The position numbers were made by a program, and so were the translations under genes. Below are positions 26,577 through 58,461 of a stretch of 64,000 bases of DNA, piece after piece (within the stretch, counting starts at the first letter, position 1; every line of letters starts with the position of its first letter). Source of the DNA: Rhytidiadelphus loreus (taxonomy: Eukaryota > Streptophyta > Bryopsida > Hypnales > Hylocomiaceae); NCBI GenBank assembly GCA_947034895.1, contig OX344765.1, forward strand, positions 17,737,001 through 17,801,000, read 5' to 3'. The notes beneath the pieces were generated by a model that made no database searches, was not told where the DNA came from, and saw only the letters and a list, made by a program, of their open reading frames with translations.

Positions 26577-26607
26577 ATGGGGAATTTCGTTAAAATGGCG
26601 GTATTCC
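26577..26607 (+). repeat. Left terminal inverted repeat (31 bp)
   Basis: Perfect reverse complement of 58431-58461. Immediately inside, the words GTTAAAATGGCGGT (26590) and ATTAAAATGGCGGT (26608) form a short direct repeat, as often seen for transposase-binding sites at transposon ends. Confidence 0.85.
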
Positions 26608-26812
26608 ATTAAAATGGCGGTTCAGAGCTCCCAAGTCTGAATGAAATCCGACCGAAAATGGTAGCCGGGGGGATGAAATCCTGCAACAATGATGGGTTCC
26701 TGTGATAAAAACACCTTTTCCTCGATTCAATCAAAGTTGGAGGGGTCCAGTTCAGGACGAAATCATATCCATTCCGTGCCTTCTTAGAGCGGGCTACTTG
26801 AAAGAAAGTTCC

Positions 26813-27460
26813 AAAACAACTCTAAGCGCCATTTGTTGTGCGAGGCATGCATGACTCTTACAATTTGGGGTGGATCACAAAGACACATCACATGGCCACT
26901 TGGGTGTGGGGCAAAGTGGCCGAGAGGAAAACAATTCACGGATCTGGATGCGCGGCCATGCACGGGAGAAGAGGGGGCGGTGCAAATGAAAGCGTGGCCT
27001 CGGTGTAAAGAAGACAGTCTACATTCAATAGTAAGGGTAATTATAGTGGTTTTTGCATAGGGATCCGAACCCGCTTACATCCAACAGTTGGGGTGGATCA
27101 CACACACATAACATTCAATTGGCCACTCGGGTTTTGGGCAAAGTGGCCAAGAAAAAAACAATGTCTGGATCTGCATGCGTGGCCATGCACGGGGAGCAGA
27201 GGGAAAACAACTCTAAGCGCCATTTGTTGTGCGAGGCGTGGATGACTCTTACAGTTTGTGGGGGATCACAAAGACACATCCCATGGCCACTTGGGTTTGG
27301 GGCAAAGTGGCCAAGAGGAAAACAATTCACGGATCGGGATGCGCGGCCATGCACGGGGAGAAGAGGGGCGCAAATGAAAGCGCGGCCTCGGTTTAAAGAA
27401 GACAGTCTTTATTGAATAGGGTAATTATAGTGGATTTTGCATAGGGATCCCAACCTGCTT
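26813..27460. repeat. Tandem repeat, about 390-bp unit, with an extra partial copy
   Basis: The unit begins AAAACAACTCTAAGCGCC (26813 and 27204) and ends GCATAGGGATCCSAACC...CTTACATC. A partial copy (27083-27203) sits between them. Each unit contains AAGTGGCCRAGARGAAAACA and CGGCCATGCACGGG. Open frames inside (about 75-120 aa) follow the repeat and are not supported as genes. Confidence 0.75.
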
Positions 27461-27714
27461 ACATCATTTCTAGCTCTCTTCTACGGGAGAAGGTGCAATC
27501 CAAGAAGAAACTAGTTACGCCCAACTTTGGGGGACCATGTGCTGCAGGACAAACTCAAAAATGGAGGAAGGTACAATCTGAACTATACCATTCTAAGTTC
27601 ACGCCGGGACGCACGACTCGTTTTTCATTCGCCGACGCAGAGGGGTGAATTTGCACTCCGCATTCTCAAGTCGTGCCTCCTAAATCGCATGCAACCATCT
27701 TTGAGTGAAGGGTC

Positions 27715-28812
27715 TTGAGCTTCATGAACAAAAGCAAGCGCTTATTGACCAATCATGTCGTTGGGAAGTCTTTACAGGGCATTCGCAGATTCCCAGACAA
27801 ATGCTCGTCAATTGCGACATGGACCACTTCCGGCGTCGCCTCTTTGCCAAATACATCAGGGTTCAACCGGTCGACCGGGAGAGGTAAAAGCAAGAGCACT
27901 CACAACCCATCCACGTTCATAGGGGAAGTCAACTTCTTCCTCGAAAGATGGTGACACATGGTCACCCATGAAGCACACCAAGACCCACCTCGCAAACAGG
28001 ACGTCACTTGCATTCAAGGAGCTCCTGGGCGCAAGGAAGGACGGCGCTGTGATACACATTCTCCCCAAGTTGTTCGAGTGTACTTGGTAGCAGCGACGGC
28101 CATCCACCGTCCACGTCCTAGCATCCGGAGTTTGGGAGGGTGAGAACCAAAAACGGTCGACTTTTCCCGGGAAGTGCACTGGTGTGAAGAGGGTGTCCAT
28201 TAGAGTACCTATTGGCTGCTCATAACTCAATCCGTCAAGCGGATGTGCCGTCGTCCGAATACCACGGTGCATAGTGAGAGCCAACTTGGTTTACGACGAC
28301 ACATACACTCGACGGCTTGAGTTATGAGCAGTCAATACATACTTCGATGGACACCCTCCCCACACCGATCCATCGCCCCGAGAATAGTAGACCGCATCTG
28401 GCACATGTCCACAGAAACCCCGGATGCCGGGAGAAGGACGGTGGATGGACGTTGCTGCTACCAAGTACCTTAGAACAACAGGAGGAGAATGTGCATGACA
28501 ACGTCGTCCTTCCTTGCGCCGAGGAGCTCCTTGAATGCAAGTGACACCCTACGAAGATCAGGGCCATGGATTCTTGTGCCATGAATCCCCTATGCATATT
28601 GGTGTTCGGACAAAAGATGGGCCGCGAGCGTCCCTACTTTTTTGCTCTACACCGAGTCAGCAAGTTCAACCATGAACGAGCCAGCACGATAACAACGCCT
28701 GAATGGATCCACACCGCACTTGACGGGCATTTGTCCGCGTGTCTCCGAATGCCCTGTAAGGTCCTCACAAGCGACATGAATAGCAAATAAACACCCGCTG
28801 GTGTTGGTGAAA
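27715..28812. repeat. Foldback unit 1, about 1.1 kb
   Basis: Arms of about 500 bp pair around a centre near 28270. For example GCGCAAGGAAGGACG near 28030 pairs with CGTCCTTCCTTGCGC near 28510, GCTGCTCATAACTCAA near 28220 with TTGAGTTATGAGCA near 28318, and the outer CGAATGCCCTGTAA block (28747) with its complement near 27775. Small open frames on both strands reflect this symmetry and are not called as genes. A transcript would form a long imperfect duplex. Confidence 0.65.
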
Positions 28813-29186
28813 TGGTGGTCCGCTGACAATCTACAGTTTTGCAAACTAGAGGGGGTGTAAGCAACGTGGGGACGTGGTCGACACCCAGAAACTAGATCGC
28901 CTTGCTGTTGGAGAGAGCAAGTATCCTGTACAAAAAGGCCAACGGTCAATTCCGGACTTGGGGGGGCAAAACAGCGCACTCAAAGACCACGTAGGCTACT
29001 GATAAGCCCACCTTATGATATACGGAGTCCTCAACCTCATTTACAATCGCACCAGGGTGACGTCCAGGCCTTCCTCCTTTGGGGCCACGAAGCCGAAGCC
29101 AGAGCACTCTGAGTCCCACCTTCGTCTGCCTGTGATGAATGTCGAGGCCCCAAGAGAAGGGGTTGGTGGACAAGTATTGTGACACC

Positions 29187-29447
29187 ATTGCCGGGATGGG
29201 GACTATTGTGAACAGGGTGCCTATCAACGCACATGTTGGCTGCTCAGAACAAGGACCTTCAAGTGGGAGTGGAACATTCATATCCAACAATGCGCAATCA
29301 TCAAACACATGCTGTTATGCATTTTTCGAGGAATGAGCAGAGCTGGATATCATTGCTCCACTCCCACTTGAGGGCTCGCATTGTGAGCAACGAACAGGTG
29401 CGTCGATATGCCCCCTGTCCACAATAGTCCCCATCCCGACAATGGTA
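29187..29447. repeat. Foldback unit 2, about 260 bp
   Basis: CCGGGATGGGGACTATTGTG at the left pairs with its complement at the right, continuing through CTTCAAGTGGGAGTGG against CCACTCCCACTTGAG. The loop holds ACAATGCGCAATCAT. The sequence to the left (28.83-29.17 kb) does not pair, so this unit is a truncated version of units 3 and 4. Confidence 0.65.
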
Positions 29448-29741
29448 GAGCGGCTGCAATCAAAGCCCACGAAGACGGAAGGATGTCGCGGAGGAGGACG
29501 ACGCATGACGGTGGCTCTCATGGTGTACCTCGAATGATGACGGAGGGAGGGATTCATGGCAACGCCTCCCGTCGTTGCCCTTGCCATTCCCGTGAACGCA
29601 AGGCGCATCCAATTCCTGTGAACGCAAGGAGCAATGCCTTCCGAGTTCTCCGCGTGCGAGCTGATGATGCTGCCCACGGTTCAGACCGCACGGTCTAAAC
29701 TGCAGGCGCCGACGCTCCAACCATCGTCGCTTCGTGATGAT

Positions 29742-30655
29742 TCTCCAGCTTGATCAACACCAGCAAGAGTCTATTTGCCGATCACATTGTCGTGAGGTCC
29801 TCGCACGGCACTCCGAGGTGCGCAGTCAAATGCTCGTCCACTGCAGTGCGGACCCATGCTGTCGTCATCCCATAGCCGGATGGATCATTGCTGAACCCGC
29901 TCTTGTGTTTACGAGAACCCACCCCGTAACAAAGTGCGCCTTGTATTCACGGGACTTCCAGTGCGCAACGACGGGAGGCGTTGGCATGGATGCACTCCTC
30001 GCATCGTTCAAGGGCACCGTTATCGAGGGTTGGCACCGAAACCGGTCAACCTTTGCCGGGATGGGGACTTCCGCGAAAAGGTGCCTATCAGCGCACCTGT
30101 TGTCTGCTCATAACAAGTGCCCTCAAGTGAGAGTCGAACAGTCATATCCAACAATGCGCAATCATCGAACACATGCTCCTATGCATTTTCCGAGGAATGA
30201 GCAGAGTTGGATATCATTGCTCCACTCTCACTCGAGGGCTCGCATTGTGAGCAGCCAACAGGTGCGTTGATAGGCCCCATCCACGGCAGTCCCCATCCCG
30301 ACAATGGTAGACCGGCTGCGGTTGAAGCCCACGGAGACGCAAGAAGTCGCGGAGGAGGACGACGGAGGCTGGTGGCTCTCCTGGTGTACCTCCAACGATG
30401 ACGGAGGGAGGGGTTCATGACAACACCTCCCGTGGTTGCCCTTGGAAGTCCCGTGAACGCAAGGCGCATCCGCTCCACATAAGAGACGCGTTCAACAACG
30501 ATCCATCCACCACGTTGACATCGTTCGAATTGGTCAGCACTACAATGGACGAATATTTTCCGGACCTTCTCAGTGTGCCGTGCAACGAACACCCAAACGA
30601 TATGATCGGCAAATAGATGCCTACTGGCGTTGGTGAAATGATGTTGCGAGGACCT
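29742..30655. repeat. Foldback unit 3, about 0.9 kb
   Basis: Arms centred near 30185. The outer blocks TCTATTTGCCGATCACATTG (about 29770) and CGATATGATCGGCAAATAGA (about 30598) pair, and the inner CCGGGATGGGGACTTCCGCG pairs with the block ending CCCATCCCG near 30300. Palindromes lie outside it on both sides (29680, 30901). Confidence 0.65.
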
Positions 30656-31099
30656 TTCATCTGCGTGCTACGATGTACAGAAGCCTACTCTACGGGGTCG
30701 GGGACTCGTGTTAAAAAAGTGAGAATATTTGTATTAGTGTATCCAATGTGGGAATGAGTATATTGTTGACAAGAATGAACTGAAAATGTCTCTACAATTC
30801 TCTAATAAATGAGATGCATCTGTAAATGTCATTTATGTTGTAGCAATGTTCAGCAATGTCAATGTGACCTTCGCAGACGAGTTGAGGATGCTGCCCATGT
30901 TTCAGACCGCGCGGTCTGAACCGCAGGCGCCGACGTTCCAACCTTCGTCGCCTCGTGATGACGCAAGGCGCATCCAATTCCCGTGAGCGCAAGGAGCAAT
31001 GCCTACCGAGTTCTCCACGTGCGAGCTGATGATGCTGCCCACGGTTCAGACCGCGCGGTTTGAACTGCAAGCGCCGACGCTCCAACCATCGTCTCTTCG

Positions 31100-32055
31100 T
31101 GATGACTCTCCAGCTTGATCAACACCAGCAAGAGTCTATTCGCCGATCACATCATCATAAGGTCCTCGCACGGCACTCCAAGGTTCGCGGTCAAATGCTC
31201 GTCCACTGTAGTGCGGACGCATACTGGTGTCGTCCCTTTGCCGGATGGATCATTGCTGAACCCGCTCTTGTAATGAGAAGAGGCAAGGACATGGATACCC
31301 CATCCACGGTCACGTCAAGAACGTCCTCTTCACATCCCGGAACCCACCGCCTAGCGGAGTACGTGTTGTGTTCTTAAGACTTCCAGTGCACAACCAGGGG
31401 AGGCGTTGTCATGAACGCCTTCCTCCAACCGTTCAAGGGCACCCCATCCGTGCGACATGCGTCCCCCTCCGCCACATCCTCGCGTTCTCCGTGGGCTTCG
31501 ACCGCAGCCGGTCTACCATTGCCGGGATGGGGACTGCCGTGAAAGGTGCATATCAACGCACCTGTTGGCTGCTAATAACAAATGCCTTCAAGTGAGATTG
31601 GAACACTCATATCCAACAATGCGCAATCATCGAACACATGCTCCTATGCATTTTCCGAGAAATGAGCAGAGTTGGATATCATTGCTCCACTCTCACTCGA
31701 GGGCATTGTGAGTAGCCAACAAGTGCGTTGATAGGCACCCTGTCCACGGCAGTCCCCATCCCGGCAATGGTAGATCGGCTGCGGTCGAAGCCCACGGAGA
31801 ACGCGAGGATGTGGCGGAGGGGGACGCATGACGGTGGCTCTCATGGTGTACCTCCAACGATGGTTGCCCTTGGAAGTCCCGTGAACGCAAGGCGCATCCG
31901 CTCCACACAAGAGACGAGTTCAACAACGATCCATCCAGCACGTTCGAATTGGTCAGCACTACAATGGACGAATATTTTCCGGACCTTCTCAAGGTGCTTT
32001 ACAACGGCCACCCACACGATATGATCGGCAAATAGATGCCTACTTGCATTGGTGA
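31100..32055. repeat. Foldback unit 4, about 0.95 kb
   Basis: Closest relative of unit 3, centred near 31637. CGTGGGCTTCGACCGCAGCC (about 31490) pairs with GGCTGCGGTCGAAGCCCACG (about 31778) exactly, and the outer GCCGATCACATC pairs with GATATGATCGGC. The spacers 30.66-31.09 and 32.06-32.45 kb share AATGAGATGCATCTGTAAAT and a palindrome, so unit plus spacer appears duplicated as a block of about 1.4 kb. Confidence 0.65.
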
Positions 32056-33042
32056 AATGATGTTACGACGAAGGGAACCACGCTCTATGGGATCGGGGAC
32101 TCGTGTTAAAAAAATGCGGGTATTTGTATTAGTCTATCCAATGTGGGAAACAGTATATTGTTGACAAGAATGATGAACTGAAAATGTTTCTAAAATTTTG
32201 AAAATGTTTCTAAAATATCTCTAATGAGATGCATCTGTAAATGTCATTTATGTTGTATGGGAAAGTCATCCGTGGCTCACCATGAGTCCACGTTCAGCAA
32301 TGTTAGTGTGGAGCTATTACTAAAAGCAATGAAGGGTAGACCGGACTTTGGACTTGGAACGCGACTGTGCAGCCTTCCGTCGTAACCTTCGCAGACGAGT
32401 TGAGGATGCTGCCCACGGTTCAGACCGCGCGGTCTGAACTGCAGGCGCTGACACTCCAACCTTCGTCGCGTCAGCCACTTGGGGAGGTGACTGCCCGGAG
32501 GGATCCTGCACAACGAAGACAATGGTCACGACCGTGCAAACGTGATTGCGATTTTCTGGACGAGCTCCAGAAAGACAAAGTTCAGAGTGGGAAAAGAGGA
32601 GCAACGGAGTATTCGATGGACAAACAATTTCACCCCATCCTAGACTACAGCCTAGTGTAGGGCGGGAAAAAATTGTTTCTCCATCAAACTCATCCATCGT
32701 CCCCTGCGTACCTCAGTTCATCCCAAGGGAGCAAACAACCCACCTTACCACATACGTACACCGTTGCACCACGCGCTCGTTAGCAGTGATGTCTTCTTAT
32801 AGGGAAGTCGAGGTCACGTCCTCGCCCGCGTCGCCCGCCTCGCCCGGCGCCTCGCAACTGTCGGAGGAGCCCACTCCTTCCGTCGTCTGGGTCCGCCGTC
32901 GCTTCATCCGTCAAGGGCCCCTTCGCGCGCTGTCAACGGAGTGCCCGCCGAAAGCGCGAACGCGGCGCAGCCCCTGCACACCCATCCATTTCCGCTTGGT
33001 GCATCAACCCTTTTCTTTCTTTTGCACCACGTGCTTCGCTCT
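32056..33042. other. Spacer downstream of gene B
   Basis: Contains the palindrome at 32419 and a small imperfect hairpin at about 32617-32700 (CGATGGACAAACAATTTC against its complement). Plus-strand open frames here are GC-driven and show no recognisable domain. This is probably the 3' flank of gene B, transcribed from the right. Confidence 0.35.
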
Positions 33043-36000
33043 TCAACAGACGAAATGATCGTTCCCGTCTCTACTGTACGTGCCGACGAACTCTGGATAC
33101 TCCAACAAGAGAGACCTGTCCTGCAACGCAACTAACCCGCGCACATTGAGTCTGAAAAAGGGCGTCGTGAGGTTTCCGAAAAACGGATTCCGAGACACGT
33201 ACTGCGACACGCTAAGACCGGACTCTAGCAGGCCCTTGAGATAGAGTCGCAATGTCCTGTCCAGGGTGGAATCGTGCGGGCTGCCAATGTACGACAACGG
33301 GAAGATGGCATTGTGCACGGGATTGAGGATGCTGCTCTCGGGGGAGGAATCGATGAGCAGTGTGTTGCTGGAATTGGCCCTGAACGTGCCGGATTTGAAC
33401 CTATCTCCATCCCAGACGGCCTTGTGCAGAACCTTGAGCCTCAGCCTCCCCTTGGGATGGTCGGGGAACTGAACGTACGTGTCCTCGTCCACGTCGGTAT
33501 CCCACTTGGGTTGGTAGGGGTGCGCCGGACAAGGCAACGAAGGGAGGTGTGGGGGGGGCCTACACCTGCACAACCGCCACGATCGTCTCTCCACGATGGA
33601 GGTGCAGTCCTCGAGCGTGAGCACGCGCATGGACGAGCGCTCCAAGCCGCGGAAGAGGAAATCAATCATGGGATTGGCTACGACGGCCGGCAGCCTCGTC
33701 CACATAGACAAGCGAAACCTCTTCACTAGGCCTCTGAGGAATTCGCGCACTTCCGGACGACACGAGAGGGAGAACTCGCCGAAGACGTGGCGTTTCGTCG
33801 GATCGTAATCGTCCTCCGATGGTGCGCTTGCTGCGGGCGAGCGACCGGATCCGAGGGGCCCGACGTGCTCAACTTGGCATAGGACTCCTTCCAACTCCAA
33901 GACAACAAAATAACTGTACAAGGGCAAAGCAACGGGAGGCGGCGGCGCAGGCAACGGCAACGAGGCCTGCGTATGCGAAATCCCTTGTTCAAAGTAGTAT
34001 TTGAAAATTGAATAAACGGGAGTCCACAATTGAAAATGCGCCCCCCCCAACAGGTGTGGGAGGCTTGAACACAGAGACGTGAACCCTTGTCCATTATCAT
34101 CCTCTTTCTAAACGAGATCCACGTCCGATCCCTACAAACTATCTAGGCAAGCGCTACGGAGGCAGTGAGCAAAGGGATGCAAGGAGATCGAGCCTCACCT
34201 TTGTTACATCCGGAGTGGTGGCTGCAACGGGAGTGGTGGCCGCCACGGGAGTGGTGGCACGCCTCGTGGCGGCGCGAGTCTGGACACCCGCGACGATGGG
34301 AGACATGACCTGTGCAGCTTGCGGAGGGGGGAGTTCCACCTCAGAGACCAGAGGGGGGACTTCAGCAATGGCGGGAGCCTCCAGTGCCATCAGTGGCGGA
34401 CAAGGAGGGCAACTCAGTCGACGGAGTACCAGTGCAGACTCTTCGCCCAACCCAAGAGCATGGCCACCCTGAACCGCAAATGCCAATTGCCAAGAGCGTA
34501 ACTACATTGCCCAAGAGGACTCGGGATAGAAAGCACAATGCACAACACTCTACATTGCACATCACTCAACGCCACGAATTCCCGAAAACACGAATTGCCA
34601 AAAAACGAAACCGATATATTACAAATAGAATACAATGTTTGTACAAACTTTACGAACAGTGTTTCACGAACAATCCGAAAATCACGTCTATACAACTAAA
34701 ATGTCTGTACAACTAAAATCGTCACAGGCCTCGCCAAAAGGGCTCCTACATCTATGGGCCTGTCGCTCCATGGACGGTGGACCCGTCGGGACGACCTTCG
34801 ATCGGCCCGACGTAACACCCTCACATAGCTTCCACACCTGGAAGCGCAATTCAAAAGATGGGGAGCTATGTGGAGGGGTTACCCACCGTGGGAGTCTGGA
34901 CGTCGTCGGAGGGTGAGTCGACTAGCGCATGCTCCTCGTGCCTCGCAGGGGGCAGCGCCGGAGCGATTGGGGCCTGCAAGGGAGCATACTGCTGGGTCAA
35001 GTTAGTGAAGGAGACCTCCATATCTCCCAAGTTGACTTCCAAGTCGTAAGGGTCATCGTCGTGGATGCTCGGACGATGCACTGGCCCAGCGACATGCACA
35101 AACGGAAATTGACTGAGGGCTAGGTCATCGAATTTGTCTGGATCGTCAACGACACTCACCGAAATATTTGCAGCCTCTCCTGAACCCAGCTGTCGAAGTC
35201 CGGACGCTGCGGTGGCCGTGGCGGCGGAAATCGAATTCGTGGTGGAGACTCCGGAGACGTTGTGGAGCTCGCTCACAGGAATGGGAGTCGCAGCCATCGG
35301 AGGGGCACTTGTCTGTGCGGCCTGCTTCGCCAAAATCTGCTCCTGCAGTTGCTTGAGCAACAAAGTGTTCGTCTCGCGATCCCTCCTGTACTCCATTTCC
35401 TTCTCGGCCTGCAGCCTTCGCTCCTCCGCGAGTTCCTTCTCCTTCTGCGCCTTCTTGGCCTTCCGCTTCACCTTCTTCTCCTCCTCCACCCGCTCCCTCT
35501 CCTCCCTCTCCCTCTTGAGCTCCCGATCCTTCTCCCTTAAATCCCTCACGAGGTTGTCGATGGCGTCATTGCGCTTGTCAAGCGCCCCCGAGTGCCTCTG
35601 CCTTTCCCGCTCGAGCATCATCTCCACGTACGCGAGGTTGATCCCTGCCTTGACATCCATGTGGATGGGTTTGGCGTCCATGTCCACCGCGACCGGAGTC
35701 CCTCCTGCCTCGGAGGAAGTCCCCGCGTCCGATGTTGCCGCTTCCGCCGCGGCCTTGGCCATCTTGCTGTACTCGTCTCTGCCGGTTGCTGCCAAGGCCA
35801 GTCGGTTGTCCAAATCTCCGTCGTCCATCTCGTCCAGATCGATCGGGCTGCTCTTTGTATTCGTGGACTTGAGGGCGAGTTGCCGATACACGGCGCGCGT
35901 ATGGGCCATGAGCAGAAGCTCGCCCGCGCTGGCGGCAGGCAGTTCCGACTCCAGGATGTCGACGCTGACCTGCGCACCGATCAGCTTCATCATGTTCTCA

Positions 36001-36503
36001 TCCCCATTGAGATCGGATGGATCGCGGATGGACCTCAATTCCTGGACAATCGCCTGCGACGCCTGAATCCTACATTCCACGAAGTCATCACTGGGATTCG
36101 CGGGAGAGGCGGCGAGGTCGGTCCTCACACTCGCCACCTCCGCCTACCTGGCCGAAGACAGTAGTCTCTGCAATGCAGCCAAATCAGCCTGCAGGTCCTG
36201 AATGAGCATTCTCGGGGGAGAGGGCGGAAGAGACTCCTCCGCAGGAGTGGACACCTCCACTCCAGCCGCCTGCGGTCGGGGAGTGGGAACGCGGAAGACA
36301 TGTGGCCGTGTTTCAGACCGCGCGGTCAGAACTGGAGCGCGGTGATCCTTGGAAGATTGGGTGACGGGATCCGACTGCAGGGCCGGATCTTCAGGTCGGG
36401 GGGAAGTAGAGGGAGTGCGAGGAGGTGGAGGTGGAGGAGACAGTAGTCGGTTTGCGGAGGGAGAGGGGGGGTTGGAGGGAGAGAGAGGAGTGTGCGGGTG
36501 CAT
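33043..36503 (-). CDS. Gene B: coiled-coil protein with an FCP1/NIF-like HAD domain
   Basis: Three exons, all joined in phase 0: 36503-34887, 34468-34199 and 33966-33043, about 936 aa. The order is a Pro/Ser-rich N-terminus, a mixed helical region, a charged coiled coil (about nt 35630-35330, REKDRELKREREERERVEEE), a Pro/Ala-rich linker, and a C-terminal domain. That domain reads YSYFVVLELEGVLC (about 33900), then FLRGLVKRFRLSMWTR, KVLHKAVW, NTLLIDSSPE (about 33350) and YLKGLL...YVSRNPF, the full order of FCP1/NIF (TIM50-like) HAD phosphatases. The nucleophile motif DxDG is ELEG and the usual DDSP is DSSP, so a phosphatase reaction is unlikely; binding of a phosphopeptide is possible. One amber stop (36144-36146) lies in an otherwise open 1.6-kb exon. 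ATG 36503 directly abuts a palindrome (36504-36523). The frame is also open upstream to the amber stop that ends gene A, so A and B could be one gene. Confidence 0.6.
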
Positions 36504-36589
36504 ATCAAACCGCGCGGTCTGATTCCTGCGCGGAGGCGCACTCGAGCTCCGCGGGGAGGCTGGCGTCGAATCAGACCGCGCGGTCTGAT
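36312..36589. repeat. Three palindromes at the gene A/gene B junction
   Basis: Copies at 36312-36331, 36504-36523 and 36570-36589. The last two lie in the 96 bp between the gene A stop and the gene B ATG. In the gene B frame they are read as QTARSD, QTARFD and LTARSE, so they do not interrupt the minus-strand frame. Confidence 0.85.
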
Positions 36590-36599
36590 CCGTCTCCCT

Positions 36600-39500
36600 C
36601 TAGACAGAGTGGACGCCGGACACCGAGGCATCTCCGTGGTCTGAAACGTCGTCGCCTTTGCCGTCTCGCCCTCCTGCGCGGTCGACGTCTTCATCTTCGT
36701 CCTTGTCCTCGTCGTCCTTGTCCTCTTCCTTGTCCTCGTTGTCCTTGTCCTCGTCCTCGTCCTTCTCCTTCTCCACTTCCGAGTCGGAGTCGCTTCCATC
36801 GCGGAGGTTGAGGGCGCCCTCTTGTGATTCCTCCTTGCCCTCTCTTTCATCATCCGAAGACTCGCTCTCCACGGGGTCAGGGTCTTGGAGCCTCCGTGTC
36901 TGAGACTTGGGGTCGTAGATGAAGTCGAGGGTGTGTAGCTGCGGCACCAAGATGTCGGGCCACATCTGTGTACCGATTCGAGCGTGCACGCTCTGGCGCA
37001 GGAGGCACTTATCGGTGGGGCGCACGAAGGAGACAGAGCTCCGACACAACATCTGCAGTGCCAAACAAGTCACACGGCATGAATTCTCCGAATGACGCAT
37101 TCAGACGGTCAGATGAGCTCTACATTGGAAGCGAGAAAGGGAAGGAGTGGAGAGCTTACCGAGCACGCGGAGACGGGCTTGGATCCCGCAAAGACGAGCA
37201 TGATCGTTCCCTGGTCCCTGCAGAACTTGTCGATGAAGCGGAGGTACACTTCGTACCGCAGTTCGCGATTCGTCAAGATCCAGGGGTTATCGTGGCGACA
37301 GAGCTCCCGGGTCTTGTACTTGACGTCATCCGTCGCCAGAGGCTTGTCCTCGACAGCCGAGAGTCGGGGAATCGGTTCCCCGACATTGACAAGTGGGGAG
37401 TTCGTGAAATGCCTCATGGTCTGCTGAATGTACATGACCCTGTCCTTCCCCCTGGTGTAATAGTTCGGCTCGCCCTTGGAATACACGTACGTCGCGATGC
37501 GCCGAGTGTTATGCTCGGGGAAGAATTTCTCGAGCGCCTGTTCCACTCCCACCACCCTCTCGGCGCCCATGATGAGCATCCACGTGTGGACCCCCTTGGC
37601 CATGGTATTTTGGGAGACCCGCGCGACTTGTTTGATGATTTTCTCGTACGCGTAGTGAATCTCCATATTCCCGACCGCCGGGAACAGGCGGAAATCCATA
37701 ATCCCCACCTCGCAGAAGCGAATGTTGGTGGGTCCGTCCACGTATTCCACCCATTCGCGCTTCTGCTTCACGTAGACAAAGGGATCGAACACCCTCCTGA
37801 CACGATCCCACCGGCAGACCGTGGCCCGCGCACACCTCTTGACGGTGTTGCAGCGTTCGTTGTTGGTGAGCAGTCGCTAGATCATGGCGACGACGTCCGA
37901 GGGAGCAACCATCGTTTTCTTCCCCGAGCCACATTGGTGCCTGAGCCACTTCTGCCCAATGTGCATGGCGGCCCACATGTTGTGCCCCCGAATGCACAGC
38001 AGCGCCTTGAACTCCCGCCAGGCTTTAAGGACGACCTCCCCCTAGGAAATCACCTCCTTGGCCTTGTCGATGCCCAGGACGTCAGCCTTCTCCTTCATCT
38101 CGAAGATGAGCACGGCCTTGTGCTTCTTGTTGGTGCACCACTGGGCGAAGGGAATGGCCGCCGTCCAACTGGTCGGCCTCTTCAGGTAGACCTTGGGCGG
38201 CGTCTCCAGGATTCTGCTCGCGAGCTCGCCTACGGCAGCGTCATCCATCCCCAGAAGGTTCTTCATCTGGTTGTAATTGATCGCCATGAACTTGTAGATC
38301 TTGGAGCCCCCTTTCCCGTCCGGAATTTGGTTGAACGGGACGCCGGTGTCGATGTCGTGCAGTGCCCCGGACTCGTGCTTCTGGAAGACCTCTTGCCAAC
38401 TGGTCCAGGTCGCATTTGAGGCCATGACGATCTTCCGGTCGCCCATCTTGTCGAAGTCCCAGGTCCTCCCCCCTCCGTTTCGGTGCTTGGCGCTCCCCAC
38501 CGCCTCGAAGCTTTGGTGTGCCTTCTCCTTGAAATCCTGGACACGCATCGGCGCGGTGAGTATGTGTCGTGATTTGACCGCGCAGTCTAAACTGTCCCCG
38601 AACAATCCACGACACCAAGTGGCGTCGAGGTCGGAATATCGCGGGATCAGACCGCGTGGTCCGAAGTGACCATGAATCAGAAAGGTGACGAGCGTAACGA
38701 GGACAATGGGAGCCTACCGATATGGAATGGGACGGAATTGCATCACTGGGATTCAGACCGCGCGGTCTGAAATGTGTAGGGAAGTCGTGCGTACCTCATA
38801 GACCTTCGGGTCCTCCCCTTCAATGATGACCTTCGCGTTCTTCCGATGTTGCGCAGGCTTGCCCGCGTTTTCCCAGAGGTGGCGAACATGCATGAGTGTT
38901 GCCGGCAGGGACGACAAGTACGGGCCCGCGACGTTTCCGTCGTTGCACTTGGACGACAACGCGTGGAGGTGGTCCTTGTTCTGGGACCACACGATTTCGC
39001 ACGTCCACCTGTGCATTTTGGCGACGACCTTCTCATCGTCGACGGTAGTGTTTCCGGAGATGATGTCCTTGGCGGCCATCCAGGTGTGCTGCCCGTTGAT
39101 GATGAGCAGCGGCCGCGCCTTCCAGCAATCCGCCCAGCATGTCGGTCTGGTGCGCGTGTCCGGCATGACGGTGAGGATTTGCTTGGCATAGTTCACCTTC
39201 ACCATCCTGTCCAGGACTGCCAAGACGCCGTCATTCTCGAGGGGCCTCACGATGATTCCCGACTCCTCCTGGGCATTCACCATGTCGGCCACGTCCAACT
39301 CGAAGTACTGTCCCCGACCGAATATGTACATGTACGAGGACAGTTCCTTGAACACCTTGTTGGCCGCCGCTTCGGCCTTGAGGCGCGTTCGCGTTTCCAA
39401 CTCGACGCTGCGTCGCGGATTGCGCTTGTACTCCGCGGGCACGGACACGCTAGCCGGGACGGCGTCGGCATCGAAGGGCAGGGTTCGTGGATTCTTGGTC

Positions 39501-40476: not shown

Positions 40477-40502
40477 GCCATTGTCCACAAGCAGTACTTC
40501 AA

Positions 40503-42932: not shown

Positions 42933-43069
42933 GCCTCCCACGAACCTGCGCACACCACACGAAGCTGCCCCAAAGTAATCATGTTTAATGGTCAGTTTAG
43001 GGTTATAACAGTGGGACTTAAAAGCGAGCTTAGAAGGGACCAATGAAGGGCGGCTCTGCCTTTTTCATA

Positions 43070-48840: not shown

Positions 48841-48874
48841 CTCATAGATACAGTGAGCCCGCAAAAAAGTGCGA

Positions 48875-51518
48875 TCAGCGGTTGCGACGTCGAGCCCCGC
48901 GAGGTTGAGGCGAGAGGTTTGCCAGATTCACTTGTGCTTGATTCAGCCGAGCCCGCACTTGCTCAAAAATATCTAGGTCGACATGAACGGCTTGCGACTC
49001 TCTGTGGAGATGTTCGGTTCCGTGCTCATCATCCTGAGAGAGTAGTGGTGGAAACACGTATTCCAATGAGTCAATATTGGTATCAGGTACTTGGCAATTG
49101 AACCTCGATGAATTTAGAACATTCGTTTACCAACTTAACCGACATCATTGCATATCATGGATGACTTCTTCCCAAGTGGGTGAAGATTGTTGTGTCCCTT
49201 CCGAAGTTTGACATGGATTTGAGAGTGGAGTCCCTTCGATGACAAGGTAGCATTGGACATATTAATCTTTGTCTATCTCCTAGTAGATGCTATTCGTAGA
49301 TAGGGACGAGCGTTTACTACTAACCTGAATGAGTTGTAGTAATAAGGAACCATTCTCGGAGGTTGATAGCTTGTTGGCATCGTCGAATTCTTCCATGAGA
49401 GCTCTGTATGTCACGCCGCAGCCCCCAGTTGAGCATGATTAGGACGAAAGAAATTCTGGAGTGAAGAACATGATTGCATGGTACAAACCCACTGTACTAC
49501 TTGTTGCTCCAAATGGGGTCTGACATGATTGACATGGAGTGGTCACCTGAGGTTCTTGCAGTCCTTGCCATGGCGGATGTGGACATACTCCTCCATCATG
49601 ACCCACACATCCCGAATCGCTGCATCAAATAGTGCACCCCATGCCACTTCCATTGTGTTTTGCAACGCACACATCACTTGACCTACAGAAAGGAAGCCAT
49701 CAATGTTGTCCGAAGTAGTATTCACGAGCGCGCCATTTAAAAAATAAATGATTTGAATTGAATGCAACATACAAATGCACGAAGCCCAACATGGTCCATA
49801 TAGCACTCACCCATCTTGCTGTCTTGGAACAACCCCTTGGATGTATCACAGTGAGAATAATGGGCAAAGTAGTACAGTTTGTATCCTTGCCAGAAATCTT
49901 GAGCTCTGTTTGGGAAATCATTCCAATTGGAATTCGCAAAGATTGATGTCAGCAGTAATGGTCATTTCCAGAATACATGGGCAAGCACACGAGCATCAGA
50001 TTCTACTTTAATTTCGTGAAAATGGCGGGTTTTTGTGGACCATTTCCGAAGACCGCATTTCGAAGTGTCCGGCTTCCTGAGTGAGTTGTACCGAGTTCAG
50101 ACCGCGCGGTCTGAACTGTGGAGGTTGCGTCATTGAAATTTTCTGATGTTGGACAGTTTTCTCAAATTTTCGACAGTTGGCGTGAAGCGACGAAGGGAAG
50201 GTCACTATCGTCATGGAATTCCGCAGTCTCGGACTCCAGACCGCGCGGTCTGAAGTCCGTGAGTCCCGTTCGTGTCAATTTTAGTTTTCGGACTTCTAGG
50301 AAGCATGTCATCTCGTTTTCCTAAATCTAGGACTATGGGAGAATCGTAAAAGTGACTGACAGGCCCTACAGCGTTTTGGATTTCCTAAGTCGTGGACTTC
50401 GACACACTTCAGACCGCGCGGTCTGAAGTGTGACAGTCCCGTCCGTGTGAATTGTAACTTTCTTCCATCCACTTGTGATCCAGTTTTCCGAAATCTAGGA
50501 CAGTTGTGGATTTCGGACCGCGCGGTCTGATCTGCAGAAACGTGTAGATTTGCGAAACCTCGTTGCTAAACCTCGCCAGTCGAATGGGATTATCATAATG
50601 GCCGTGATGGCTTTCAATGAACACAATGCTCGGAAAGCAACAACTTGAAGTCAGTTCAACGTACCCGAAGTTTTGATGGTCAAGTATAGTTCTGAGGTTG
50701 TGGGAGCACTTGCTGAAACGTGAGTCTGCCATTGAGCCTCGTCGAATGTGCACCTACCCCCAAATCCAAGAAACTTGTATGCTTTAGTTGTGCAATTTGG
50801 AGCCAAGGGAGGTACCTTTTGAATCCCACTTCGGAAATGACAAGCATTGCAAGTCAGTAGGGAGCGGAGCCGTGATCCATTGACATCTACAAAGTTCAAA
50901 GTTCAAAGTTTAACGAAATTGACCATACAGTCACGTAGTTACTAAGCGGCGAGTGAAACATGAAGTGTATTATTTATTTCCTACAATAGGCTCCATGAAA
51001 GCGCGTACTAGGAGAAAGCATTCTCTCTTTGCGCAATCTGTGACTCCTATAATTCCTAAACCGAAAACATGTTCTCTATGACATCGTGCAATGGATGGAA
51101 ATAGAAGTCTTGAGACTTGCATGCATTTGCGTGTCATCTACACTGAAATCAATCCATTGACAATGTCCATTTCTTGAGTTGATCGGTTTTGACTGGCGCA
51201 ATCCCAAGAAAGCAAGAATGGAAACAATTGAAATATGTTTTACCTTGTGAAGAGTGTTGCGAAACTGCCCTCCTCTTCCGCGTTTGGATGTTCGCCTTCT
51301 TTCCACCGTCCCCTGTGCTTGAGTTTGTGCCGCCTTCTTCCCACCCGGCCGTCCACCTCCCTTGTGTCGATGTTGCGAAATGCAGCGCAAGTTGAAATGA
51401 ACGCCGCTACCTTGTTGCGCCCAACTACTTTGGACGCCGCCTTGAAGTTTGCCCGAAAATCCCAGGTGAAGTATCCTCGAAGGTACAAGGCTTGCATCCG
51501 TTTGCAATGCGCCGCCAC
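48875..51518 (-). CDS. Gene C: unrecognised multi-exon gene (tentative)
   Basis: Several minus-strand open segments end at good donor sites and follow acceptors: 51518-51240 (basic, VGRRRHKLKHRGRW, then NAEEEGSFATLFTR, donor AAG|GTAAAA); about 50899-50668 (TCNACHFRSGIQKV, FLGFGGRCTFDEAQW; donor GG|GTACGT); about 49945-49833 (DFWQGYKLYYFAHYSHCD; donor ATG|GTGAGT); 49681-49543 (after TTTCTGTAG; MCALQNTMEVAWGALFDA; donor CAG|GTGACC); and a last piece, 49066-48875, ending QPRGARRRNR-stop. Four palindromes (50097-50531) fall between the second and third segments, that is in a presumed intron. I recognise no domain. Exon chaining is not proven and some exons may be missing. Confidence 0.3.
50097..50531. 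repeat. Four palindromes, including a perfect 30-bp one
   Basis: Copies at 50097-50116, 50235-50254, 50408-50427 and 50512-50531. The third extends to a perfect 30-bp palindrome (50403-50432, outer arms CACACTTCAG and CTGAAGTGTG). The second extends with arms CGGACT and AGTCCG apart from one mismatch. The spacers share words such as CCTAAATCTAGGAC. Confidence 0.9.
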
Positions 51519-51971
51519 TTACACGAGTTTCCCTTAAACTATATTAAATGGGAGAGTATCACACGAGTTTTCTGTAGATGACCCTACTGTACGTCCCATG
51601 ATTCTCTTGTATTTGTCGCTTCCCTCGTATTTTGAAGCCCGAGCCATTGACAGAGCTTGATGGACAAATGAATGTGTTGTACTATTAGTAATTCTTGTTC
51701 CATCCCACTTTGACTAATTCCTGACTTTCAACGACCTTTTCTTTGAAATGAAATTGAATGCATTGCATTGCCTTTGGTTTCGTGTTTTTTCAGTAATTTA
51801 CATGAAATCAAATTATTGTTCCCCTTGGAGCTTCCAAAGGTATCATTCCCTTTCTATTTGAGTTCGTAATTCTGATTTGTGATTATTCAATGACATGTAG
51901 AGTGCCTATTAGATTGAATTTCAGTACACCTTCAGCTTGTTCGATTTCCGCGAGGTCCGTGACTTTCACAT

Positions 51972-52162
51972 TTGAGACCGCGGGGTCTGAAATGTAAACC
52001 TGTCAATATGAAAGGACACTCCGAGGTCAGGCAAAAGGCCTCGTTTGGAGGATGACAAATTTCTATGACTGGATTCCTGTGAAGACGTCCAGTCCCTGTC
52101 GTGCAGGAATTTTTCAAATTCTGCCGTTTTCACAGTTCAGACCGCGCGGTCTGAACTGTGAA
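51972..52162. repeat. Two palindromes, including a perfect 34-bp one
   Basis: A degenerate copy at 51972-51991 (core GACCGCGGGGTC) and a copy at 52137-52156 that extends to a perfect 34-bp palindrome at 52129-52162 (outer arms TTCACAGTTC and GAACTGTGAA). Confidence 0.85.
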
Positions 52163-53400: not shown

Positions 53401-53428
53401 TAGTGTTCTTGTCTCGCGAATTCAGTGC

Positions 53429-53470
53429 CATTTTAATGGAATGCGGTGCCATTACATTGGAATACCGGCA
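53429..53470. repeat. Internal TIR-like sequence
   Basis: GCCATTTTAATGGAAT matches the complement of the left-end sequence just inside the TIR, followed by two further diverged words (GCCATTACATTGG, GGAATACCGGCATT) that echo the terminal repeat. Either a remnant of an older end or extra copies of an end-binding site. Confidence 0.45.
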
Positions 53471-53742
53471 TTGCAACTAGGAATACCATTCTGGATTTCT
53501 AGAATTATATCAATTTTGTTTGGTTGTCATTGTTATATTATCCACTCTTCCCCTGTGGAATTGCCTTTTGATTGGTTGGCATTCTGGACAACAGTTCATC
53601 GTCATTTGTGTTACCTCCCTGACTGCACATTAGTTACCTAGATGCTCCGTTTTATTAGGTACGTCTGTACACCGACTTATTCACGTTGCACGGTGTGAAC
53701 ACATTGAGGTTGGAAGTCACCTTACGAGTGAGGCCTTTTTGT

Positions 53743-54533
53743 TTTTGACCGCGCGGTCTGAAACGTTTTGAGACGGAGGATTTGATATCCTGAAACTGCA
53801 CCCCCCACTCATTCCAGACTGCGCGGTCTGAAATGTTTTTCGACCGTATTCAGAGATCCGACAACGGAGAGTCCATTTTGGAGATCCATCGGATTTCACA
53901 TTTCAGACCGCGCGGTCTGAAATGTTTGATACCTCACCTCGTGTTCCAACATCGGATTTTCATTTATGTCCAAGCGATGACAACTGTTTCCTGCTCGTAC
54001 AGCATTTGTCAAAATTCTGGATTATCATTCCAGACCGCGCGCTCTGAAATGCTCCATGTTACCTCTACTTGGAAGGACTGGATCCGAGTAGTTCGGACAA
54101 CAGTTCAGACCGCGCGGTCTAAAATGTTCCGAGCAAGTTACTGCTCCGGGAGGTTCCGCTCATCGGATTCCGAAACATGCATGGTCCTATTTCTATGAAT
54201 CCACAGACCTCTCGAATTAGACCGCACGGTCTAAACGAACGACACGTTCACTGCCGAAGATATCGTCCTATGCAAGTATGGAATTTGGCAGTGAGTTTGA
54301 GGCCGTCGAATTCTGACTAGTACCGGTTGCCGTAGGTTCATCTCCTGCTCTAGTGGTCTTCCCGTGGCTCCTCACGAACAGACCGCGCGGTCTGATCCTA
54401 GAGAGCACTTGGCAATTAGGAATGACATTTTCAAGACAAAGGTTGCAGTCCATCAGATGAGTATCATGTCATGCATGCACACGGGATGTCTGAATGATTT
54501 GCATATCCTGTCTTCCAGACCGCGCGGTCGGAT
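53743..54533. repeat. Eight palindromes upstream of the transposase-like gene
   Basis: Copies start at 53743, 53813, 53902, 54029, 54104, 54217, 54377 and 54514. The one at 53902 extends to a perfect 28-bp palindrome (53898-53925). The last ends 113 bp before the ATG at 54647, mirroring the array in front of gene A. Confidence 0.9.
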
Positions 54534-54646
54534 CGAATTCGTCGGGGAAGCATTTACCACTTCCTGCGACAACTTACGGAGCTCCCGTGCGGGCCCTCCG
54601 TGGAGTGGGAGACTTCGTTTCCGGAAACAACTTCCGAGGGGCCAGT

Positions 54647-57600
54647 ATGGCTTCTGGCAGAGAATCCGACGGCGACGAGGTACCCCACTTACTCATCGAC
54701 CCTGCGTCACCTCTCGGCATTCTGCTCCGCGTCCCGAGTTGATTCTTGACTGCGGCATGCACAGGGGTTCCAAGAATGTGAAGAGGAAGACGTCGACTTG
54801 GAGGCACCTGCCCAGGCAGATGTGGACGCCACTCCCATTCCGGATTGTGAGGGCATTGGTCGGGACGCATGGTCTGGCAAAGCACTGCTCGCGAGGCACG
54901 CCGACGGCACCGATTTCGCGGAAGTCATCATCATCAATGCCAATCCGAACGCATGCATTGATGGTAACAGCAGGCTGGGCGTGGATGACGTCGGCATTGT
55001 TGTGCTCGAGGTCCTCAATGGGGACCACAGCGTCAGCGACATGTGCTTGCGATGGCCTATGCGACGCGTCTTTTATCACGGTGAACACGGGTATGTCAGT
55101 GTTTATGATCACGCTCGCAAACGACAGGCTATCAAGGAAGAACTGCAAGGAAACCAGAAGAGAACGGGCGGACGACAATATCGCTATGACAGGAGAACTC
55201 GAGCTGCCGCAACACTGAACAAAAGGACCAAGATGCTATCACATGAGTCCATCGCCGAGGTCTACGCGCAACTTTGTTGCGACAAGGAATGCACTCGCAA
55301 ATTCTCTCCTTCCACCATTCGCGCGCTGCGGACAGAAATGCACATGCAGTCATTTCAAATCAGGAGCACCCAAAATTTGGACGTACACAGGGCGCTGCAC
55401 GAAGTATGGGGAAGCGGAAGGAGGAAAATGGTCACCGTAGAAGGCATAGACATCTGTCCGCATGCCTGGAGGGTTGTGCACAACATTACTCGCCGCACGT
55501 TCGAGAGGTACAAAGCCAAGGCCAAGGTTGGCGTCAGAGGCGCTCCGCACGGAAACCACCACCATACAAAGGCTAGGGATGCAACTGTACAAGCCATCGA
55601 GACTTTGCGCTCATTATTGGAGGCAAGGGCCGACCACATGCCCCATTTGTCTCACACCTTGCGCACAGGCGAGAAAGTGGGCGTCAAAGTGCTCCCCGCC
55701 GGAACCGAATGGGGGCAATTGTTGGTCACCGTGAACGAGGTAAGCTTCCCACGTACCTACAGCATCACTTGAGATTCAGAGAATGAGGCACTGGCTCCAC
55801 TGCGCATTACTCATGACAATGATCCAAAGTCCTTGTCCATTGTGATCATTCATCCAACAACCATGTGCTTGGCACTGTTTGCAGGCCAACTCCGGACTCG
55901 GGTTGTCCGCCCTTTCGCAATCTTGTTTCAGTAAGATCCGGACAAAACATTTTTCCGAGTACGTCATCAAGGGAAGAGGAGATTCCTTTGCAAGATGTAG
56001 CATTTGCGACACCTTGAAGCAATTACGTGCTTCTTTTGCACCTGGGTGCGAGGACTACGAACGAATCCAGAAGCGTTTCGAGAAGCACTTGTTTCTGCAA
56101 GAGGCCTGTCGGCATGCCTACTACCGGAGTAGATGGTTGTCCAAATTGCAACCCATGCAATTGTTATCCATCATGCACGACAAGATGGACCATTCGAAAA
56201 CAGCGTGTCCCGCATTGGCGAGAAAAACGAAGGCACTCGATGGACTCATGAAGTTGCCCATGAAAGTGACAGGAATCTTTGCACACGGGCACGAGGATGG
56301 CAAATACACACATTACAATTTGGACGTGTTTCGGAGCGACAACAACTTCACCGTGGGATCCATCGCCAAGCTGTTGCGAGATTTGGAAGCCCCTCCCATC
56401 AAGTCTTCTCGATCTTTGTTTGCTGGAGGCGGCAGCACAAAGTTGTATCGAGCATTGCTGTCGGGTAGCGAGATTTGTGTGGCTTCTTTGGGAGAGGTTC
56501 CTCCACAACCCATCGAAGCCCAACCATTGCCCCCGGTGCTCCACGTTCAAATGGACAACTCGTGGAGGGAAAACAAGAACCGGTACGTCTTTTGTTTTTG
56601 GTCGCTCTTGGTGGCAAGGCGGATCGTGAAAGAGGTGATCGTATCCTTCATGATCGTGGGACACACGCACGACGACATGGATGCATCGTTCGGGCGTTGG
56701 AGCATGTAACTCCGCGAAAAGGACCATCCCACTTTACCGTTGTTGATGCAGTCGTACATGGAAATGGAACAAGGCCCCTTCATTCCCCACCTGGTCGAAG
56801 AAGTTCCGGATTTCAAGGCTTACGTGAAACCTTACATCGGGATGCAGAAGCAACAACTGGTGGGCCACTCGCACGGCCGACAATACAAGTTCTTCATGGA
56901 CGACAACGGTTGGCCGATCATGCAATACAAACTGGCGTGTACAGACATTCCTTGGTTGCCGGAAGCGGGCTTGAGGTTATGGAAGGAAGATGCTGAGCAC
57001 AAGCCTCTGCTTCCGCAAGGCGATCCCCTCCGCGTGTCTCCGAAGAAAATGACGAGCGAAGCCGAGATCGTGCGCGGACTGAACGGATACATCCAACACT
57101 GGACGGACGTATGCAGAGACGGGACGGCGGAGTACAAGGCGCGCATGTCCTATTTGGTCGCGTATTGGAGCGGCGTGAGAAATGCGCTGCGTGACGGAGC
57201 GGAAGAAGACCCTCGCGACTCTGATGAGTTGCAGCAGGGGTTTTGGCCTCAGACTCGACAACCTGGGGATTTCACAATGGACTTCATGCAAGACGGCCGA
57301 ACGCGGGAGGAGCACGAGGCGGAAGACCCTTACATCGGCACTCTGGAGGGGAGGCCCCCGCCAGCGTACAACGTGGCCACTGATCTGCGCGAAGGCTTCT
57401 ACGTGTTTGTGAGGCCGGGCTTGGATTGCGAGGATCCAGTGTGGCTTGGTAGGGCCGTGGAGAATCCTCAATTCGATCCCGCGGGAGTCCACTTCCGTGA
57501 AGTTTTGGTGCAATGGTACATCCCGTGCGGCACCTCGAAGGACACCGCGCGGTTGTACGCCGGGTGGGACACGAAGTCCAGTTTCAGATGGAAGATTGAC

Positions 57601-57756
57601 CGTAGGGCGAGCCAGGCGGACTACGTATCCACGGACAGTATTATGGCCTCGTGGAAACCGAAGAAAAATGACAGGAAGAGCTTCATTGCGCCGCGTCAAC
57701 AAGTGCAATTTGCGGTGGACAATTTGCGTCGCATTGCAGAGGAAGAGGTACACTAA
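54647..57756 (+). CDS. DUF7869-type, RNase-H-fold transposase-like protein
   Basis: Three exons: 54647-54679 (MASGRESDGDE, donor GAG|GTACCC), 54765-55739 (after GCACAG; donor GAG|GTAAGC) and 55885-57756 (after TTTGCAG). All joins are in phase 0, about 958 aa. Exon 2 has an acidic start, a Lys/Arg-rich helix and CPHAWRVVHNITRRTFERYK. Exon 3 has CSIC near a possible zinc site (about 55996), HDKMDHSK (about 56176), MDNSWRENKNRYVF (about 56551) and GHTHDDMDASFGRWS (about 56659). The spaced D...DN..ENKNR...GHTHxDxD series is the signature I know from DUF7869 proteins and fits a DDE/D-like active site; no residue of it is lost. One ochre stop (56707-56709, one transition from CAA) follows directly. 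The same frame then continues for 349 codons to LRRIAEEEVH-stop. It is the best candidate for the mobilising enzyme of the element; that role is inference. Confidence 0.65.
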
Positions 57757-58430
57757 CTTTTGAAGAATAATTATGATGGGCTTTGCTGGAGAGGGACGTT
57801 GGAAGCTGTATCTTCGATGCGCGCTCAGCTACCATGCGTTTTTGCCGAGTGACGGCGTTTGACATATAATGTAGCCAACGGTGAGCGGTCAATGGCAATC
57901 CATGTAGTTTTGGACTGGTGCTTGAGATTGCATTGTTGAGGTCCTTGGTAGACTCTAGGAAGCGTGGCGTGCATGCTGGCCGATTTTTGTACCGACCATT
58001 TTCTTCGAGGAGAAATAATATTAAATGATGCGTTTCGTTTTGGGGGGGTCTCGTCCATTTGAAGGAGTCCTATTTTGAGTTCTCTTTGTGCAATATTTGT
58101 TGATCCCGCGTTCATGAATGATCACGCCGAATTGTCCATCGTGGGTTCCTGACCCCTACCCCTGATGCCCCCCCCTTCCATTTGAGGAGGCGACGACAGA
58201 AAGCCTGTGGTTCCAAAGATTCCAGGAATATTCCACCATCTCCCCGTTCGTTTTGCCCGCCTTTTGCGAACTAGATTTGTGCCCATTGTCTGTCCTTCCT
58301 CTCCTAGTACGCAGAAATGCATCTTCTCGTGCCGTGGGATCACTTTGTCGGACCCTACCATCACATCCAACTGGCTACGTAGCACACATCCTAAACCACC
58401 TTTCCGGACCTTCATGTACAAATGGCATTC
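57757..58430. other. Right subterminal region, non-coding
   Basis: Between the transposase-like gene and the right TIR. No palindrome copies and no supported gene. An open frame at 58207-58542 crosses the TIR and the target duplication into the interrupted host gene and is not real as a unit. Confidence 0.45.
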
Positions 58431-58461
58431 GGAATACCGCCATTTTAACGAAATTCCCCAT
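58431..58461 (-). repeat. Right terminal inverted repeat (31 bp)
   Basis: Begins GGAATACCGCC and ends AAATTCCCCAT; exact complement of 26577-26607. Confidence 0.85.

Follow-up and report, generated by a model that had tools for sequence, protein, structure and literature searches.

A 64,000-nucleotide stretch of the genome of the moss Rhytidiadelphus loreus (GenBank assembly GCA_947034895.1, contig OX344765.1, positions 17,737,001 to 17,801,000; hereafter the window, numbered from its first letter) was analysed, and the interval 26577-58461 within it was identified, from sequence comparison, as probably a member of a family of giant transposons with terminal inverted repeats (TIRs) that is present in high copy number; such elements would move as whole units, and their ParB-like product would bind the palindrome of their own family. 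The initial annotation had proposed a giant TIR DNA transposon at this place, a proposal now supported by copy number, target site duplications (TSDs), uninterrupted relatives of the flanks, miniature inverted-repeat transposable elements (MITEs) and a transposase-like gene under constraint. Of the cut-and-paste mode proposed with it, mobility is backed by comparison between copies, while excision is presumed.

Identification of the transposon and its copies

The ends of the element are marked by the following features:
26573-26576, no strand: left TSD, TTAG, directly outside the left TIR
26577-26607, plus strand: left TIR, 31 bp, perfect, from inverted-repeat comparison
58431-58461, minus strand: right TIR, 31 bp, perfect, from inverted-repeat comparison
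58462-58465, no strand: right TSD, TTAG, directly outside the right TIR

The perfect 31-bp TIRs and the TTAG duplication adjoining both of them were thereby confirmed as first annotated. A reading frame that had been reported to run on across the restored junction is also present, but comprises only 60 codons and is weak evidence by itself. The check suggested with the annotation, a genome-wide search for other TIR pairs, was carried out on the whole assembly (407 Mb, 489 contigs) and had a positive outcome: a 25-base TIR core gave 3,478 matches with up to three mismatches (1745 forward and 1733 reverse) versus none for either of the reversed control cores, and paired ends with 4-bp repeats were recovered. 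A 45-base pattern of the left end gave 246 matches (122 and 124 in the two orientations) genome-wide with up to three mismatches and none in the controls; at least three of these are MITE ends, three having been fetched among the one-mismatch variants. The 20 listed pairs of ends span 31.1-38.2 kb and mostly about 33.4 kb, and the pieces of other copies that were fetched align to the window element along its length.

TSDs were read from 12 end pairs of large elements, comprising the window element, ten fetched pairs and the pair L001/L002. Exact 4-bp duplications were found in 11 of the 12, every one different (TTAG, ATTT, CGGG, AAAT, AGTG, TTGT, ATTG, AATT, CCAT, ATAT and AGTC), which suggests that 4-bp target duplications are made without an obvious target sequence. 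When the flanks of the copy at C1:35933252 were joined with one ATTT kept, they aligned across the junction to window positions 58999-59856 at 76-80% identity, with gaps of at most 72 bases and no giant insert. Window 58999-59856 is thus host sequence paralogous to the flanks of C1:35933252, and a second giant element sits in DNA related to a flank of the window element. Nothing was found in favour of a segmental duplication or an assembly artefact with inverted repeats arising by chance, and this explanation has hardly any probability left in the face of many dispersed copies with different TSDs and of flank relatives devoid of the insert.

The same ends were found on much shorter elements. 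At C1:21759362 a giant copy is enclosed by a 246-bp MITE that has TIRs and a CTTG duplication of its own; no empty counterpart of this 246-bp element was found elsewhere, and the one free MITE compared with it has 135 of 247 positions in common, mainly at the ends. Four free elements of 246-247 bp with the TIRs of the giant elements were identified (L003:1501-1747, L037:84-329, L038:78-323 and L039:97-342), three of them with exact TSDs, and those of L037-L039 are about 91-94% identical. Because giant elements and 246-bp MITEs carry the same TIRs, one type of end serves both, and our guess is that MITEs account for most of the 3,478 TIR matches. Ends of the type ATGGGCAATTTC had been considered a sign of a third giant family, which proved wrong when the three such ends fetched turned out to be 246-bp MITEs. 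Beside the MITE of L003, near position 1824, a degenerate palindrome, TTCAGACCAGGCGGTCTGAA, comes after a second TIR-like start (1771).

Transposase-like gene

Two features on the plus strand make up the putative transposase gene:
54750-55772, plus strand: N-terminal transposase reading frame, omega ~0.52, without Pfam match
55846-57756, plus strand: DUF7869 transposase-like catalytic reading frames, from Pfam, with a stop at 56707-56709 in the window copy

The frame 55846-56709 matches Pfam DUF7869 (PF25273, 1.8e-33); in the following frame the match goes on, but weakly (0.0089, under the cut-off). The stop codon at 56707-56709, which breaks the window frame, is a sense codon in 9 of 9 other aligned copies. 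Constraint on the transposase is indicated by an omega of ~0.53 for its frame across ten copies; other frames gave 0.86, 1.62 and 0.84, and a noncoding stretch gave 1.05. The genome search for the transposase scored 136 of 1508 first-look candidates and by our own division yielded at least 75 loci of the family of the window element (family A) and at least 61 of a sister family (family B). An open frame of 635-636 codons with no stops in the match was counted by hand at 38 of the 75 A loci, which implies that intact copies of the transposase frame exist. Seven B loci have an identical score, pointing to recent spread.

A protein search with DUF7869 returned 288 relatives, 120 of them listed, and in 53 aligned relatives most residues of the motifs HDKMDH, QxDN and GHTHxDID are nearly invariant. 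In the structural model of one relative, strand 214-219 leads directly to the first Asp, strand 339-345 ends with the second Asp and GHTHDDID lies between strand 371-377 and helix 384-389, an order which, in this low-confidence model, we take to be that of the RNase H fold. A PDB profile search with the transposase gave two matches only, both to RNA-binding proteins (E 0.56-0.59), and no paper on DUF7869 was found in the open literature. Whole units of about 33.4 kb would be moved by this protein acting as a DDE/D-type transposase, its chemistry and the excision step being presumed; 4-bp target duplications would be made in the process, and the ends of the units are common to the MITEs of ~246 bp.

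Palindromes and the ParB-like gene

The palindromes of the window element and the two accessory exons considered with them are as follows:
29682-32436, no strand: four family-A palindromes in the left repeats (CAGACCGCGCGGTCTG, at most two mismatches)
36314-36587, no strand: three palindromes, from the pattern search
37109-38713, minus strand: candidate methyltransferase-like exon, a 509-residue frame in copy L029, with conserved GIMDF and FIDKFCRDQGT..FAG motifs
38648-38769, no strand: two palindromes (38648 and 38754) in a presumed intron directly after the ParB-like splice donor, a place matched in family B
38753-40503, minus strand: first exon of the ParB-like accessory gene, a 583-residue frame in L029 and two frames in the window copy
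40505-42001, no strand: nine-site array upstream of the ParB-like gene, partly with a 91-bp period
50098-52153, no strand: six palindromes, from the pattern search
53745-54531, no strand: seven-site cluster upstream of the transposase frames, from the pattern search

The sequence CAGACCGCGCGGTCTG occurs at 31 sites with up to two mismatches, all within the element, against 0.01 expected from shuffles, and no site was found in the window's 32 kb of flanks. Measured from the element ends, the outermost 16-base matches come at 3.1 kb on the left and at 3.9 kb on the right, and a weaker 12-base match was seen at 57543, 0.9 kb from the right end. The ParB-like exon has a presumed start Met near 40476 and a presumed splice donor, with GAG before and GTACGC after the boundary, directly before the palindrome at 38754.

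The ParB-like label of the initial annotation draws on a motif, IINGQHTW...AAKEI, that we read as ParB-like, and it agrees with a published parallel in Ectocarpus described below; it found no relevant Pfam match. The methyltransferase-like label did not fare as well, being a resemblance in motif order only (GIMDF... followed by ...FAG(A/S)K, taken by us to be methyltransferase-like); neither Pfam nor NCBIfam nor PDB gave a relevant match, and the model is of low confidence. Relatives in other assemblies comprise 22 proteins for the ParB-like exon and 7 for the second exon; phage relatives of the two exons were sought using tblastn and none was found. The relatives P0002 (transposase), P0136 (ParB-like) and P0148 (second exon) each lie on a foreign contig of 338,987 bp, probably one and the same contig.

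A genome search for the ParB-like gene gave 78 matches, with 75 of 1450 candidates scored, and 75 loci remained once three second pieces had been dropped. At 63 of the 75, a family-A transposase lies on the opposite strand, on the expected side and 10-60 kb away (median 16.9 kb), compared with 4 for the control arrangement. A 583-codon match without stops was counted by hand in 11 rows. Between families A and B, the rate of nonsynonymous change (dN) in the ParB-like protein is 0.40 and that of synonymous change (dS) 1.63, the latter saturated, which indicates purifying selection.

In the mechanism considered here, the opposite-strand accessory gene would begin with the ParB-like exon and continue with a second one that is possibly methyltransferase-like, and the ParB-like product would bind the 16-20-bp palindrome of its own family. 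With palindromes upstream of its own gene, upstream of the transposase gene and at the splice donor of the first intron, binding would act on two transcription units, the effect being autoregulation or a shielding from host silencing such as VANC proteins provide for VANDAL transposons.

Comparison of the two families

Family B was sampled from two copies, the first represented by its right end (L033), its ParB region (L034) and the region upstream of its transposase (L035), and the second by a stretch around the ParB-like gene (L036). The TIR core of the B right end differs from that of A at 1 base in 25. The transposase core is 83-87% identical between the families and the N-terminal part of the transposase 72%; identity falls to 52% for the ParB-like protein and to 46% for the second exon. 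The B palindrome, CAGAGCG-GG-CGCTCTG, was found with up to four mismatches at 20 sites in 7 kb of L034 (none in 30 base shuffles), at 11 sites in L035 and 6 in L036, and at none in L033. At the diagnostic arm base, the window element of family A has 31 C/C, 0 G/G and 2 mixed sites, and no G/G-arm sites were found in six other A loci, whereas L034, L035 and L036 together have 0 C/C, 31 G/G and 5 mixed sites. The B sites occupy places matching those of A. In L034 the ParB-like gene has an upstream array and its splice donor is followed by a site; L035 has an array upstream of the transposase.

As the palindromes and the ParB-like proteins differ between A and B and the TIR cores are nearly identical, the switch of palindrome went along with the rapid evolution of the accessory genes and left the TIR almost as it was. 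From this co-variation of two families we infer that the ParB-like protein reads the palindrome, for both binding and effect, and the diverged accessory gene and different palindrome suggest that each family may recognise itself. On the simplest interpretation, the palindrome is read by the ParB-like protein, whose action falls on the element's two transcription units.

The chief alternative is that the palindromes are binding sites of the transposase, unconnected with the ParB-like gene. Subterminal repeats are transposase binding sites in CACTA and Ac/Ds elements. The palindromes of the window element are, however, not at the element ends, given the distances of the outermost 16-base matches, the three 246-bp MITEs examined have no palindrome site, and the TIR core stayed almost unchanged between A and B while the palindrome switched; we consider this explanation unlikely, though it deserves more weight than any of the other alternatives.

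Less probable again, but of some weight, is the possibility that the host recognises the palindromes as signals (marking a chromatin boundary, an origin or sites of methylation), or that they are selfish tandem repeats to which no element protein corresponds. Part of the palindrome array is indeed a tandem repeat with a 91-bp period, and mutation does not clearly spare the palindromic CpGs, where 17 of 904 cells changed (1.9%) versus 298 of 10,662 (2.8%) elsewhere. Against it stand the palindrome-free 32 kb of flanks and the presence, within one host, of two families with different palindromes at matching positions. Possible remnants of palindromes beside the matching splice donor in proteins of other assemblies are a weaker, only suggestive argument: P0121, P0123, P0125, P0127, P0129, P0145 and P0146 contain residues that a read-through palindrome would encode, after the matching donor or before the second exon, but the scan is unspecific, since one of its patterns also matches 15 DUF7869 proteins in a coding motif.

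Several observations weigh against a giant transposon that recognises its own palindrome through the ParB-like protein. At the ends, L023/L024 (C1:79012659-79043724) is the sole one of the 12 large-element pairs with mismatching TSDs (GTTT versus AGTT), and an exact TSD is absent in one of the four free MITEs. For the proteins, no profile of Pfam, NCBIfam or PDB supports the labels ParB and methyltransferase, and the second exon gave a poor model, with a predicted local distance difference test (pLDDT) of 49. Structure comparison of the DUF7869 model (pLDDT 58) returned winged-helix-like matches at residues 63-151 and no RNase H fold; given that pLDDT, the missing match would be no evidence against such a fold. 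Eighteen ParB-like loci (hand count, window copy included) have a frame of only ~391-397 codons and were amplified nevertheless, implying that amplification did not depend on the accessory product in cis. Since the A and B palindromes resemble each other, with four mismatches allowed there are 4 A-type matches in L034 and 2 each in L035 and L036, as well as 4 B-type matches in the window element. The co-variation amounts to one evolutionary contrast between two families, the B sites were read from two copies, only one of which showed the array upstream of the ParB-like gene. Lastly, the N-terminal part of the transposase also differs between A and B (72%), so the transposase could read the palindrome instead. 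The ends of the pair L023/L024 have possibly recombined.

Further features of the window and its copies

The remaining features of the element are listed below:
26813-32500, no strand: left repeat-rich segment with direct and inverted repeats of up to 300 nucleotides, from repeat comparison, with an extra tandem repeat of ~1.4 kb in 8 of 10 others
33043-34107, minus strand: reading frame of a NIF/FCP1-like HAD phosphatase (PF03031, 2.4e-10)
34866-37100, minus strand: acidic, proline-rich and coiled-coil reading frames, an uninterrupted 574-residue frame in copy L029
42100-48900, no strand: AT-rich part of the element, common to two other copies at 97.5-97.8%

The HAD-like gene of the initial annotation is borne out by the Pfam NIF match. 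The stretch 33043-34107 is 2 bp shorter in the window copy than in 7 of 7 other aligned copies, and the frame, unbroken in the window, probably runs through what was once an intron. Codon constraint on the phosphatase is 0.58, versus 1.05 and 1.09 in other frames (8 copies), and values of 0.37 and 0.57 were obtained for two further accessory parts from 3 copies only.

The window copy is without the ~1.4 kb of left tandem repeat, which is present in 8 of the 10 other left ends fetched. The content of the element had been described as confined to the interval, which is true of the palindromes (31 of 31 inside the element); GC-richness, on the other hand, is uneven, 42.1-48.9 kb being element-owned yet only 35.5% GC. 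Both copies whose middles were fetched share this AT-rich part at 97.5-97.8% identity, one of them being unaligned over the first ~0.7 kb. It is therefore part of the unit, and its origin as a nested insertion was ruled out, most of the stretch being common to these two copies.

Over the last 9.5 kb, ten copies are pairwise 97.5-98.9% identical. The differences among them are mostly transitions (720, against a counterpart of 179), and C-to-T or G-to-A changes are ~2.5 times as frequent at CpG, an excess that would fit cytosine methylation of the inserted copies. Long inverted repeats, 84-87% complementary and ~52 kb apart, lie one on each side of the element, at window positions 9607-11229 and 62632-63905, and are probably two copies of one host repeat.

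Relation to described elements

No standard superfamily could be named for the element at the outset; this has been partly answered, the closest described relative found being a giant Sola-1 element of Ectocarpus. As far as the available text of its description goes, Sola1-1_Ec32 is a 21.5-kb giant Sola-1 transposon that likewise carries, opposite the transposase strand, an accessory gene with ParB-like and DNA-methyltransferase domains, and its authors propose that a transposon is bound and modified by the ParB-methyltransferase proteins that it encodes (PMC12477816). When the two are set side by side by description only, the accessory-gene arrangement appears to match, the methyltransferase domain being a candidate only, and the family described here differs in its ~33.4 kb and high copy number; its palindrome arrays, NIF phosphatase and MITEs do not figure in the available text on Sola1-1_Ec32. 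A giant transposon with an opposite-strand ParB-methyltransferase gene is already described; the family-specific palindrome array and the contrast between A and B are new and add a candidate binding site.

In the parts of the literature available to us, the Sola superfamily is characterised by 4-bp TSDs, TIRs and a DDD transposase, includes some elements of more than 15 kb and is reported in moss (PMC10741241, PMC3627910). The window element has 4-bp TSDs (exact in 11 of the 12 pairs) and perfect 31-bp TIRs. DUF7869 itself has conserved acidic residues, in an RNase-H-like order of predicted strands in the model of pLDDT 58. Because the 4-bp TSD, the TIRs, the giant size and the opposite-strand ParB-like gene fit, the element works like, and probably is, a Sola-1 relative, a placement made from these traits.

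Other assignments fit less well. The termini are ATGGG and not the TGTNR of Ginger elements, and TSDs such as CGGG, TTAG, ATTT and AGTG are not CCGG/CCGT or RTATAY. The target site of piggyBac and Kolobok elements is TTAA, which was seen in none of the 12 giant pairs and in one of the four MITEs. KDZ/Zisupton elements make an 8-bp TSD, whereas the 8-base flanks of ten pairs repeat no further than 4 bp and the transposase frames match only DUF7869. The large size, the several genes and a GC content unlike that of the flanks would also suit an endogenous virus or a virophage-like (Maverick-type) element, but this explanation is very improbable. Among the element frames scanned, there was no Pfam match to polymerase B or another polymerase, to a packaging ATPase or other packaging protein, or to a capsid; the TSD is 4 bp, as opposed to 5-6 bp in Maverick/Polinton elements, and together with the MITE partners fits a TIR transposon. 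A scan of IMG/VR with two peptide patterns matched 54 stretches, none of which was confirmed as a transposase relative.

Bacterial ParB-parS is a palindromic-site system, which the element resembles in its ParB-like motif and clustered palindromic sites; it differs in being a eukaryotic-type transposon, with neither a helix-turn-helix nor a CTPase domain shown, and no partition role is suggested. VANC and VANDAL are a protein and a group of transposons distinct from those considered here. In the accessible parts of the work on them, VANDAL elements similarly have a family-specific short motif that is arrayed in noncoding parts (in introns of VANC21 and VANB21 and upstream of VANA21) and diverges with the accessory protein, but that motif is a 9-mer in one orientation, in contrast to the 16-20-bp palindrome of the window element, and loss of methylation, demonstrated for VANDAL/VANC, would here be a proposal (PMC5735166).

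A broader proposal, put forward tentatively from the sequences and with less confidence than the identification of the family itself, is that the ParB(-methyltransferase)-like protein and its cognate palindrome co-diversify as a self-recognition system, in which each family would bind, possibly mark (with 4-methylcytosine, 4mC, or 6-methyladenine, 6mA) or un-silence only its own copies and their two promoters. Such a system would be an independently evolved, ParB-based counterpart of VANC/VANDAL. For an accessory protein of the Ectocarpus type, the contrast between A and B supplies a candidate site and makes the question of its function directly testable. If the A and B proteins pair off with their own palindromes, sequence-specific self-recognition would have evolved in transposons at least twice, by unrelated proteins.

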